64,000 nt of DNA from assembly GCF_014202225.1 (NCBI RefSeq), contig NZ_JACHGE010000001.1, positions 539,320 to 603,319 on the forward strand, given 5' to 3'. Shown one piece after another: positions 19,949 through 51,078 of this stretch (position 1 is its first letter; every line of letters begins with the position of its first letter). Under the pieces are notes generated by a model, which saw only the letters and a list, made by a program, of their open reading frames with translations, was not told the origin of the DNA and ran no database searches. Made by a program: the position numbers and the translations under genes. Source of the DNA: Algibacter amylolyticus (GTDB taxonomy: Bacteria; Bacteroidota; Bacteroidia; Flavobacteriales; Flavobacteriaceae).

Positions 19949-21154
19949 ATGATTTTAGAAATGAAAGTGCCTTCTCCAGGCGAATCTATTACAGAAGTAG
20001 AAATAGCAACTTGGTTAGTAGAAGATGGTGATTATGTTGAAAAGGATCAAGCTATTGCTGAAGTAGATAGCGACAAAGCAACACTTGAATTACCAGCTGA
20101 AGCTAGCGGAATTATTACGCTTAAAGCGGAAGAAGGTGATGCTGTTGAGGTTGGAGCTGTAGTTTGTTTAATTGATACAAGTGCAGAAAAACCAGCAGGA
20201 GGTGAGGCTCCAAAAGCTGAAGCTAAAGTTGAAGCACCAAAAGCTGAGGCGCCTAAAGCAGCCGAAACTAAAACTTACGCTACAGGTACTGCAAGTCCTG
20301 CCGCTAAAAAAGTTTTAGCTGAAAAAGGTATAGATGCAGCAACAATTACTGGAACAGGTAAAGCGGGACGCGTAACTAAAGAAGATGCTGTAAATGCAGT
20401 ACCTTCAATGGGAACTCCAACAGGAGGTAGTCGTGGTACGTCTAGAAGTAAAATGTCTATGTTACGTCGTAAAGTGGCAGAGCGTTTAGTAGAAGTTAAA
20501 AATACAACGGCTATGTTAACTACGTTTAACGAAGTTGATATGTCGCCTATTTTTGCTTTACGTAAAGAATATAAAGAAACCTTTAAATCTAAACATGGAG
20601 TTGGATTAGGGTTTATGAGTTTCTTTACTCTAGCTGTAGTGAGAGCATTAGAAATGTATCCAGCAGTTAATTCAATGATGGATGGTAAAGAAATGTTATC
20701 ATATGATTTTTGCGATATTAGTATTGCTGTTTCAGGTCCAAAAGGATTAATGGTGCCCGTAATTCGTAATGCCGAAAACTTAAGCTTTAGAGGCGTTGAG
20801 TCTGAAGTAAAACGTTTAGCGCTTAGAGCAAGAGATGGTCAAATTACTGTTGATGAAATGACAGGTGGTACATTTACTATTACAAATGGTGGTGTATTTG
20901 GAAGTATGTTATCTACTCCAATTATTAACCCTCCACAAAGTGGAATTTTAGGAATGCACAATATTGTTGAGCGCCCTGTTGCTATTGATGGTCAGGTTGT
21001 AATTCGTCCAATTATGTACGTTGCTCTATCTTACGATCATAGAATTATTGATGGTAAAGAAAGTGTAGGCTTTTTAGTTGCAGTTAAAGAGGCACTAGAA
21101 AACCCAATAGAATTATTAATGAATAACGATGTTAAAAAAGCATTAGAGTTATAG
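19949..21154 (+). CDS. sucB: 2-oxoglutarate dehydrogenase E2 (dihydrolipoyl succinyltransferase)
   Basis: 401 residues. The N-terminal lipoyl domain has its lipoylated lysine K43 ([13 protein letters not shown]). An alanine/proline-rich linker with KAEAPKA repeats follows, then the E3-binding domain ([20 protein letters not shown]) and the catalytic domain with the active-site motif [15 protein letters not shown] (H364). It transfers the succinyl group to CoA. It is in an operon with sucA, and a strong terminator follows. Confidence 0.97.
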
Positions 21155-21244: not shown

Positions 21245-21346
21245 CTAACTAAAACAGACAATAAGATTTATTGCGACTACAATAACGGCTAAAATGCTTA
21301 ACCCTATTATAATACATTTGTTAAGTGTGTTGTTTTCTTTTTCCAT
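21245..21346 (-). CDS. Possible 33-residue single-helix membrane peptide
   Basis: A short frame starting MEKENNTLNKC with one hydrophobic helix (IIIGLSILAVIVVAINLIV) and ending CFS. An in-frame ATG at 21361 would add five residues. The charged N-terminus and clean helix look like a real small membrane peptide, not a chance frame. It follows the proximal of the two candidate small RNAs and is closed by the bidirectional terminator at 21172-21213. No family is known to me. Confidence 0.45.
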   Translation of the reverse strand: MEKENNTLNKCIIIGLSILAVIVVAINLIVCFS

Positions 21347-21385
21347 CTGGGAATCGAACATGTTCTTTAGGTTTTAAATTTATTT

Positions 21386-21452
21386 TAAAACTCTGCACCG
21401 CTACAGTGCAGAGTATCTAAAAAATTCTCTCTCAAAAGAATTAATTAATAGC
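21386..21452 (-). ncRNA. Candidate small RNA, copy A of a tandem pair
   Basis: About 65 nt from the predicted start near 21451. The 5' part GTGCTATTAATTA is shared with copy B. A small hairpin AATTCT/AGAATT follows, then a strong terminator hairpin ACTCTGCAC/GTGCAGAGT (21414-21406 and 21398-21390) with TTTT after it. No start codon with a useful frame is inside. Its existence is inferred from the promoter and terminator pattern and its duplication. Confidence 0.5.
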
Positions 21453-21456
21453 ACTG

Positions 21457-21503
21457 TAAAAGTAAAAGGAATGGCGGTGAAAAAAAATACGCACTTATAC
21501 GTA
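21457..21503 (-). promoter_or_regulatory. Promoter A with response-regulator-type direct repeat
   Basis: On the minus strand TACGTA-N4-TGCGTA (21503-21488) has its two hexamers one helical turn apart. It is followed after exactly 23 bp by the box TACTTTTA (21464-21457), a TAnnTTTA variant of the -7 element. The same arrangement occurs at 21609-21655. Confidence 0.55.
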
Positions 21504-21537
21504 TTTTAAAATGAGTAGTTTAAAAAAAGTCTATAAA

Positions 21538-21604
21538 ATGCAAAAGCTCTAGACCATTACAATCTAGAGCTTTCTTTAATTCTCCCTAAGAACTAATTAA
21601 TAGC
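21538..21604 (-). ncRNA. Candidate small RNA, copy B of a tandem pair
   Basis: About 65 nt from a predicted start near 21603. It shares the segment GTGCTATTAATTA with copy A. It has a short 5' hairpin TTCT/AGAA and then a terminator hairpin AAAGCTCTAGA/TCTAGAGCTTT (21573-21563 and 21553-21543). No usable open frame is inside. It lies directly after the regulator gene. Confidence 0.5.
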
Positions 21605-21608
21605 ACTG

Positions 21609-21655
21609 TAAAGATAAGGGATATAAGTCTTACAAAAAATACGCACTTCTACGTA
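21609..21655 (-). promoter_or_regulatory. Promoter B with response-regulator-type direct repeat
   Basis: On the minus strand TACGTA-N4-TGCGTA (21655-21640), then 23 bp, then TATCTTTA (21616-21609). Sequence and spacing match promoter A. The repeat starts two bases after the stop codon of the NarL-type regulator. Confidence 0.55.
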
Positions 21656-21657
21656 TA

Positions 21658-22290
21658 TTATAAAAAATCTTTATTTAAGGTTGCCCAAATGGATAATGAT
21701 GTGGGCCTGTTATCTAATTTTAGTTTATGTACAACATTGCTTCGGTGTTTATCCACAGTTCTAATAGAAATAGATAGCTCGTCGGCAATATCTTGGCTTG
21801 TTTTATTTTCAGAAATAAGTTTTACTATTCTTAATTCAGATTTTGTAAGTAAATCTAAGGTTTCAGGTTTGTTTTCTAAGGTGCTAGCATTTAAATAGGA
21901 GGCTATTTCTTCGCTAAAATAAGGCTTGCCTATAACAACTTGACTAATACAAGTTTCAATTTCTTCAATAGCAAACTCCTTTAAAATATAACCGTAAACA
22001 CCGCATTCTATGGCTTTATCATAAACTTCTTCCTCCTTATCAAAGGTTATTAGAATGACTTTGGTATCTAATTCATTTCTTTTGCAATCTTCAGCAATTT
22101 CTAAACCCGTTTTATATGGCATTCTAATATCTAGAATAGCAATAGTTGGTTTTAGTTTAACTATAAGGTTGTATGCAGCTTTCCCATCTTCTGCACTACC
22201 AATTATATTAAACCCTTTAGAGGTTAAAAAATCGGTTAAGCCTCTAAGCATTAACGGGTGATCATCAGCTATAACAATTGTAGTGTTCAT
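21658..22290 (-). CDS. NarL/FixJ family response regulator
   Basis: 210 residues. The receiver domain has the acidic pair in IADDHP, the phosphorylated D54 (AILDIRMP) and the conserved lysine in YILKEF. A LuxR-type helix-turn-helix follows at about residues 148-205 (LTKSELRIVKLISENKTSQ, ELSISIRTVDKHRSNVVHKL). It should activate transcription when phosphorylated; no histidine kinase gene is adjacent. The gene stands 33 bp after the retropepsin-like gene on the same strand, and two sites suited to a dimeric regulator of this class lie just past its stop codon. Confidence 0.94.
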   Translation of the reverse strand: MNTTIVIADDHPLMLRGLTDFLTSKGFNIIGSAEDGKAAYNLIVKLKPTIAILDIRMPYKTGLEIAEDCKRNELDTKVILITFDKEEEVYDKAIECGVYGYILKEFAIEEIETCISQVVIGKPYFSEEIASYLNASTLENKPETLDLLTKSELRIVKLISENKTSQDIADELSISIRTVDKHRSNVVHKLKLDNRPTSLSIWATLNKDFL

Positions 22291-22323
22291 TTAGTTTAGA
22301 GAGAGAATTGGATTGCTATTAAT

Positions 22324-37318: not shown

Positions 37319-37702
37319 CGGTTATTTATATTTCGATTTAGAACTTTGGCAAAGCTACACATTTTTTTTATTTTTTGAATTTATATAAAACGCGTTTTTT
37401 GGACGGGTTTTAAGTTTATAAGCTAAGAGAAAAACAGCCTAGGGCTGACAAGTGTTTAAGTAATATCTTAAAACCGCGCTATCCACTATATCTTTTTAAA
37501 ACGTTATTGGTATGCAGGAATGACTTTGGTAACCTGTTAAATTTTAGTTCTACATAATATTAAGTGTTTATATTTTTTAAAAAGGATGCCGTTTCTATCG
37601 CTCCCGCATGTGTCTGCTAAATACAGTCATCATTCAAAAGGAATAAGTCTATTTGTTTAAATCATGGTCTTATTGTAGTATATTGCTTTCTTTTGTGATT
37701 TT
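37319..37702. other. Intergenic region between pyrH and the membrane protease-like gene
   Basis: 384 bp between two divergent genes. I see no open frame, RNA gene, clear promoter or repeat in it. Confidence 0.5.
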
Positions 37703-50917: not shown

Positions 50918-50989
50918 GTTGTCTTATTTACAGAGCTCACAGACGTGTGTGCTTAATATTTTGTTACCGACTTAGTTGTGTTCTGTATT

Positions 50990-51078
50990 TGCGTTAGGGA
51001 TTGCAGCGGCATCCTTTTTTTGCTGCCGTAAATGGCAAAAAAAGATATAGCAGAAAGCCCGACCCTTTATGGGTAACG
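50990..51078. repeat. Candidate dispersed intergenic repeat element
   Basis: The stretch from GCGTTAGGGATTGCAGCGGC to CAGAAAGCCCGACCC resembles an intergenic repeat I recall from flavobacterial genomes. It has an inner hairpin of T7GC and GCA7 flanks around TGCCGTAAATGGCA (51014-51042). It is higher in G and C than its surroundings. Only this copy is in the window. Confidence 0.4.

Follow-up and report, generated by a model that had tools for sequence, protein, structure and literature searches.

Response regulator-linked tandem units encoding candidate small RNAs in Flavobacteriaceae, with predicted feedback on the regulator leader

Results

Two tandem units adjoin a response regulator gene

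The window, by which we mean the whole stretch of 64,000 nucleotides of Algibacter amylolyticus DNA analysed here, contains on its minus strand a response regulator gene followed by two units of similar design and by a small open reading frame. The features, in the order in which the minus strand is read, are the following.

22291..22323, minus strand: regulator leader, between the aspartyl-protease-like gene (the upstream neighbour) and the regulator ATG, holding ATTAATAGC and AATTCTCTCTC
21658..22290, minus strand: NarL/FixJ-type response regulator, 210 aa, recognised by its Pfam domains and by orthologues adjoining the same element
21640..21655, minus strand: proximal operator, palindromic, TACGTAGAAGTGCGTA, from direct reading and comparative scans
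21609..21616, minus strand: proximal promoter box TATCTTTA, of the -7 type, 23 bp from the operator, with conserved spacing
21538..21604, minus strand: proposed small RNA of class B, about 66 nt, predicted start and end
21488..21503, minus strand: distal operator, palindromic, TACGTATAAGTGCGTA, from direct reading and comparative scans
21457..21464, minus strand: distal promoter box TACTTTTA, of the -7 type, 23 bp from the operator
21387..21452, minus strand: RNA or leader of the distal unit, class A, predicted start and end
21245..21361, minus strand: membrane micropeptide ORF, 38 aa, after the distal unit, with one transmembrane-like stretch
19949-21154, plus strand: convergent odhB-like gene, read from the sequence, which closes the region

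The names odhB, murA and murF, here and below, are what we take these genes to be from our own reading of their sequences, without database support. The regulator carries both a receiver domain (PF00072, Response_reg, E 2.5e-24) and a LuxR-type helix-turn-helix (PF00196, GerE, E 2.2e-12), both above the Pfam cut-offs, and this combination places it in the NarL/FixJ family.

An initial annotation of this DNA had described the 16-bp element twice on the minus strand. Direct reading confirmed both copies (21655-21640 and 21503-21488), as well as the exact 23 bp that separate each from its TAnnTTTA box, the common start region CAGTGCTATTAATTA, the short 5′ hairpin and the terminator-like hairpin in either unit, and the two bases between the regulator gene (21658-22290) and the first element (from 21655). 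The class B RNA of the proximal unit consists of the 5′ module GCUAUUAAUUAGUUCUUAGGGAGAAUUA and a terminator hairpin, and the distal class A unit of GCUAUUAAUUAAUUCUUUUGAGAGAGAAUU and then the hairpin CUCUGCAC..GUGCAGAG; the T-run behind the window terminator is short. The two halves of the element, taken in that annotation for direct hexamers, had to be reinterpreted as an imperfect inverted repeat, which is a perfect palindrome in many relatives. Since distant genera often carry the perfect form (for example TACGTAACGTTACGTATTG), we read the TACGTA-N4-TGCGTA of the window as a decayed inverted repeat.

Operator and spacing recur beside the regulator in Flavobacteriaceae

On its own the 16-bp element is unremarkable, with 6 matches in the window for 4.18 expected (two mismatches; 25 of 100 shuffles reach 6). 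The exact element combined with CAGTGCTATTAATTA has two occurrences in the 4.35-Mb genome, both at this site, and the reversed control has none. The arrangement in the window is real, and not a product of chance. Element, spacing (20-27), box and CAG together were found in 20 of 299 genomes of the family (reversed control 0/299), and a looser composite in 98 of 397 family genomes, belonging to 66 of 237 genera (reversed control 3/397). In a draw from the phylum the composite was present in 4 of 345 genomes, three of which belong to the same family as the window, the window's genome being one of the three. A scan of named genomes returned 72 stretches, mainly from Algibacter, Flavivirga, Hyunsoonleella, Mariniflexile, Seonamhaeicola, Tamlana and their relatives; its matches in other phyla look like chance, and 13 loci judged to be chance (L059, L060, L067, L068, L089, L091, L098, L110, L114, L119, L124, L126 and L128) were removed before units were counted.

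A match to this NarL-type regulator accompanied the pattern at 63 of 67 loci selected on the pattern. The initial annotation had staked its reading on the element and its spacing standing beside orthologous regulators, and it came through the reciprocal comparison: when loci were picked solely by their regulator protein (the best 30 of 49 matches in 99 genomes, 46-100% identity), an element agreeing with TACGTA-N4-TACGTA at 10 or more of the 12 positions lay downstream in 27 of 30, and no such element was found downstream in the other three, L018 (263 bases covered), L025 and L032. The distance to the box was exactly 23 bp in 117 of 119 units possessing a TAnnTT box and an RNA start, a count in which many loci had been preselected for a spacing of 20-27 or 22-24, and which omits distant genera whose box begins with other letters. 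The number of units per locus varies from 1 to 9, with four in L102.

Several loci show how the arrangement varies. Nine tandem units stand behind one regulator in L207 (G392 contig 1, 1238880-1240047). In Bizionia argentinensis (L123, 785-1082) there are three, and beyond GCTATTA their RNAs no longer follow the common 5′ module. In some other genera TPR-HisKA_3-type kinases are encoded directly before the regulator or a relative, in L025 (2102-3529), L027 (2-1492) and L032 (2122-3573), with domains assigned by Pfam in L025 only. The window's genome has the aspartyl-protease-like gene at that place instead, and a search of it for a close relative of the TPR histidine kinase gave 30% identity at best and no clear orthologue. 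Such a kinase is a possible clue to the regulator's ancestral partner.

The same palindrome and promoter are also found elsewhere in the window's genome (L129, 3108-3411; G000 contig 6, about 60608), before a gene for a 75-aa protein (MIRLNLKPS..). This gene adjoins a murA-like gene, and its product has a weak KTSC match, below the cut-off. A regulon site before a gene that starts alike is also present in L076, L090, L101, L132 and L134.

These comparisons strongly support the central proposal of the initial annotation, namely that a NarL-type regulator drives the adjacent RNAs through the shared element. The proposal of two paralogous RNAs needs amending on two points: the distal copy precedes the micropeptide gene, and the RNA module occurs more widely than this regulator.

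Terminators covary, and the 5′ module is conserved as sequence

The RNAs fall into two main classes, with 25 units outside both. Class B comprises 62 distinct RNAs, whose 5′ module resembles GCUAUUAAUUAGUUCUUAGGGAGAAUUA and whose terminator hairpin is long; double changes were seen at 13 of its 14 pairs (783 paired cells, for a shuffle mean of 701 and a maximum of 712). Class A comprises 33 RNAs with ..AAUUCUUUUGAGAGAGAAUU.. and a hairpin, in which 9 of 11 pairs show double changes (350 paired cells; shuffle mean 319, maximum 328). Covariation, which had been suggested as a check on both hairpins, was found in the terminator of class B and in this hairpin of class A but not in the 5′ hairpin, since the 5′ module is conserved as sequence and is almost invariant. 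Conserved operator, spacing and covarying terminator make these units, at the sequence level, candidate sibling short RNAs.

The 27-nt core of the module (up to 3 mismatches) was detected in 86 of 397 family genomes, from 60 of 237 genera, with no match for the reversed control. In a draw from the order it was present in 7 of 381 genomes, all among the 72 of the window's own family, and in 0 of the 309 others.

Rfam 15 gave no match at the tandem units at the gathering threshold; at the RNAs of L245, L308, L318, L207 and L022 it gave only a tRNA, and its weak matches to the RNAs fall far below thresholds. Membership in a known Rfam family, or in Flavo-1, was rejected since there is no Rfam match at the RNAs. 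Flavo-1, which is listed in a table of PMC2864571, does have two matches in the window, at 50986-51068 (plus strand, 59.5 bits) and 37468-37622 (minus strand, 43.8 bits; gathering threshold 42), at positions unrelated to the tandem units.

The RNA module is found behind other regulators

A search with the loop complement brought to light another copy of the RNA in the window's genome (L245). There (683-1590), a gene for a 256-aa PAS_3-GerE regulator, the palindrome ACTCAAnTTGAGT (ACTCAAATTGAGT) and the RNA copy follow one another, facing a murF-like gene. Seventy-two places with the core, being those that lie within the examined loci and a part of the core matches of the 397-genome scan, were sorted by palindrome: 33 fall into the TACGTA class, 28 into the second class, that of L245, 4 into a third (TACCY-N6-RGGTA) and 3 into a fourth (TTACGG-N4-CCGTAA), and 4 are unclear. 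A different response regulator (Response_reg and GerE) adjoins one of the four third-class loci, L308. The fourth class is accompanied by a 221-aa protein with a receiver match that is sub-threshold only, and with no LuxR-type helix-turn-helix match in Pfam. The four regulator types are in this way three proteins with a LuxR-type helix-turn-helix and one receiver-like protein. Class 1 and class 2 have dissimilar terminator stems. When 26 class 2 RNAs were aligned and folded as a consensus, the 5′ hairpin alone was retained, with no terminator and no double change. Copies of the core near L306 1751 and L270 1500 have no recognisable palindrome or regulator.

A palindrome was identified in 68 loci; in 64 of them, and across the four palindrome classes, 43-43.5 bp separate the palindrome centre from the 5′ G of the RNA. 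No recognised regulator was found upstream in 5 of the 68, and palindrome class agrees with regulator type in all 63 assigned loci, a count for which the class 2, 3 and 4 reference regulators were drawn from the same loci, so that L245, L308 and L318 were each matched with themselves. This agreement supports the view that a regulator recognises the palindrome of its own class, and it shows that the RNA has come under different inputs. As the module sits behind three palindrome and regulator types besides that of the window, one RNA output is probably shared by several signals.

The palindrome might also be bound by some other regulator, the adjacent response regulator being there by coincidence. 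The five loci devoid of a recognised upstream regulator would fit such a reading, and binding by the neighbour is itself deduced from sequence, but the 63 concordant loci speak against it, and we consider it very unlikely.

Many regulator leaders are complementary to the RNAs

In the regulator leader of the window, ATTAATAGC and AATTCTCTCTC show complementarity to the 5′ end of the RNA and to the distal unit's 5′ hairpin. Leaders of the regulator genes often hold ATTAATAGC and a CTCTC, CTCC or TCCCT stretch near the ATG; in reverse complement, the former corresponds to the 5′ end of the RNA and the latter to the loop of its first hairpin. Pairing was examined in two sets of leaders, for which a regulator start and one or more units were required, with an identity of 45% or more as a further condition in the RNAduplex analysis described below. 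The first set (63 leaders) is the one where the TTAATAGC motif was first noticed; the second (48 leaders not used before) leaves out L161, L185, L188 and L197, which have no regulator, and 15 leaders already in the first. Both sets draw on related species, and their leaders are not independent observations. Results were as follows.

TTAATAGC: 31/63 leaders of the first set (shuffle mean 0.3, maximum 2), 11/48 of the second (shuffle mean 0.3, maximum 1); other leaders 0/47 and 0/312 (0/359 together)
CTCTC, CTCC[TC] or TCCCT: 48/63 leaders of the first set (shuffle mean 10.3, maximum 14), 26/48 of the second (shuffle mean 7.2, maximum 11); other leaders 3/47 and 6/312
Best contiguous pairing reached in no more than 5 of 100 shuffles: 34/63 leaders of the first set, 15/48 of the second

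The 312 control leaders precede ORFs of at least 150 aa in L057-L128 and may include spurious ORFs. RNAduplex gave a weaker signal (23 of 63 leaders, mean z -1.46), and contiguous pairing was used as well because RNAduplex allowed many loops. Significant contiguous pairing was absent from 29 of the 63 leaders of the first set and from 33 of the 48 of the second, among them that of L207 with its nine units.

Among the 48 CDS leaders of the window, that of the regulator ranks first (score 26, the next being 19). When RNAs were swapped between leaders the mean score was 19.84, for 20.43 with their own RNAs, a small gain reached by 34 of 5000 permutations. Covarying RNA/leader pairs were observed in L013 (GCTATTAATAATT/AATTATTAATAGC), in L020 and L066 (GCTATTAATC/GATTAATAGC), in L014 (GCTATTAGT/ACTAATAGC) and in L116 (GAGATAGAAT/ATTCTATCTC). 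The order of the sites in the leaders varies, ATTAATAGC being placed directly before the ATG in L154 and L193 for example, and the two complementary stretches of the window leader cannot both pair colinearly with one RNA. In the leaders of class 2 regulators TTAATAGC was present in 0 of 27, so that no feedback is claimed for this class, and the CTC motif in 8 of 27.

Two strict words were used to look for other targets. Before an ATG, the 12-mer TTAATTAATAGC (11 genomes) and the loop complement TTCTCCCTAA (10 genomes) recurred at the regulator gene only; other hits of the target scan were the units themselves, single genes, or places inside or without genes. For a module used by several regulators, this lack of a second recurrent target in 10-11 genomes with two strict words is odd.

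It may be that the RNAs act in trans mainly on other mRNAs, the leader complementarity being a side effect or a minor loop. Such a reading accommodates the conservation of the module behind a PAS-LuxR and two other regulator types, the class 2 leaders devoid of TTAATAGC, and the regulator leaders that lack significant pairing. The regulator leader is nevertheless the only recurrent target found, with covarying pairs, and neither of the two scans brought up another repeated gene. We regard this alternative as possible, if somewhat doubtful, and consider that the RNAs probably exert a negative feedback on the regulator mRNA, as predicted from these complementarities and as in OmrA/B-ompR.

A membrane micropeptide follows the last unit

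The micropeptide of the window has a conserved core of 33 aa from its second Met, at 21346, and no Pfam match. Of 167 regulator loci, a set that contains duplicates, 132 have a small transmembrane ORF behind the units; 88 distinct peptides were counted, a few of which, such as those of L051, L168 and L172, look like false ORFs. The convergent odhB-like gene is present in 136 of the same 167. The core reads like MEK..NK.IIGL..LVVIVISINI..FF. In L017, L027, L102 and L121 the promoter runs straight into the peptide ORF, with no hairpins. Because it precedes the peptide gene, and is hairpin-free in some relatives, the distal copy is best taken for a promoter and leader, perhaps also an RNA.

Should all units be cis-acting leaders or attenuators of the peptide gene, tandem copies would simply be successive promoters. 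The position of the last unit before the peptide ORF in most loci, and the four hairpin-free promoters, agree with this. Proximal units, however, close with a terminator-like hairpin that covaries, and further operators lie between them and the peptide; class 2 copies adjoin another regulator, with a convergent gene following at once in L245. We consider a purely cis role unlikely.

Discussion

A single explanation, which we consider probable, would link the regulator, the RNAs, the peptide and a distant gene. We infer that the phosphorylated response regulator binds the 16-bp palindrome, which extends to where the -33 region begins, and that it activates, rather than represses, transcription of one or more tandem trans-acting RNAs of about 66 nt, of a membrane peptide of about 33-38 aa from the last unit, and of at least one distant gene, that of the 75-aa protein. 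With GCUAUUAAU.. at the 5′ end and with the first hairpin loop (UUAGGGAG or GAGAGAG), the RNAs would pair in the cell with the leader of the regulator mRNA just before the start codon; this pairing would block translation of the regulator and close a negative feedback loop. It is comparison between genomes that brings out the operator and its fixed spacing, the RNA module, the terminator covariation, the linkage to the regulator and the leader complementarity seen in many genomes.

A broader proposal, for which we find the case evenly balanced, is that the 27-nt module is a shared output of signalling in the Flavobacteriaceae: the four regulator types would have copies of their own, set behind the palindrome of each type at nearly one fixed distance, all of which could also silence the NarL regulator of the window type, and through RNA their signals would converge and cross-inhibit.

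That the RNAs are protein decoys of the CsrB/RsmY type exposing GGA motifs is the least credible reading: GacA, of the NarL family, does drive RNAs of this type from a palindromic upstream site, and the class B loop contains AGGGAG, but the class A loops (GAGAGAG) have no GGA, and the CsrA form of the model was rejected because PF02599 was found in 0 of 21 genomes including the window's own, with a control detected in 3 of 14 named genomes.

In Bacteroidota few trans-acting RNAs are understood, and promoters are unusual. The family described here supplies a promoter geometry for NarL/LuxR-type control at such promoters, and it should be directly testable, as operator, regulator, RNA, micropeptide and predicted target together span about 1.1 kb. 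If our reading is true, an RNA gene has been put under new regulators by operator swap, with the distance kept.

A literature search, with subscription papers and preprints outside its scope, found no paper describing the units reported here. In the same bacterial family, Rfp18 of Flavobacterium psychrophilum is outlined in a transcriptome paper, PMC9723704, as an sRNA whose third stem-loop is predicted to pair with protease mRNAs; we set it apart by this description, and not by sequence. The Brt RNAs of Bartonella form a lineage-specific family of nine copies, each adjoining a gene for a DNA-binding Trp regulator, and are presented in PMC5387305 with one regulator type, downstream of each RNA, and a length of 194-203 nt. 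The flavobacterial RNAs, likened to them by description and not by sequence, have four regulator types, placed upstream, and about 66 nt. In Vibrio, duplicated CsrB siblings are summarised in PMC6262261 as being under different control to integrate signals, a private regulator beside each copy not being stated in the abstract. The flavobacterial RNA copies resemble them in their predicted placement under different control.

CsrB acts via CsrA binding. The system of RsmX/Y/Z and GacA combines, like the flavobacterial units, a NarL-type regulator and a palindrome upstream of small RNA genes. RsmX/Y/Z RNAs titrate CsrA/RsmA, whereas CsrA is absent in 21 of 21 genomes examined here.

The Qrr RNAs of vibrios are multiple siblings activated by the response regulator LuxO and pairing with luxO mRNA, as outlined in PMC4211561, and in that outline they correspond to our units by number, by the proposed response-regulator control and by the predicted pairing with the regulator mRNA, that is by design and not by sequence. 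Unlike the flavobacterial units, Qrr genes are dispersed, and they belong to another phylum. LuxO is sigma-54-dependent. Another close parallel in design is OmrA/OmrB and OmpR of enterobacteria, where the same source outlines tandem sibling RNAs under a response regulator, with conserved 5′ ends, that repress the regulator's gene (PMC4211561); tandem siblings, conserved 5′ ends and a predicted repression of the own regulator gene are likewise the traits of the candidate flavobacterial RNAs. The latter differ by their 1 to 9 copies, by the inclusion of a membrane peptide gene and by the presence of the same RNA behind other regulators. OmpR, moreover, is not of the NarL type, and omrA/B are not adjacent to ompR. 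If the mechanism proposed here is true, the feedback design of the OmrA/Qrr type arose separately in another phylum.
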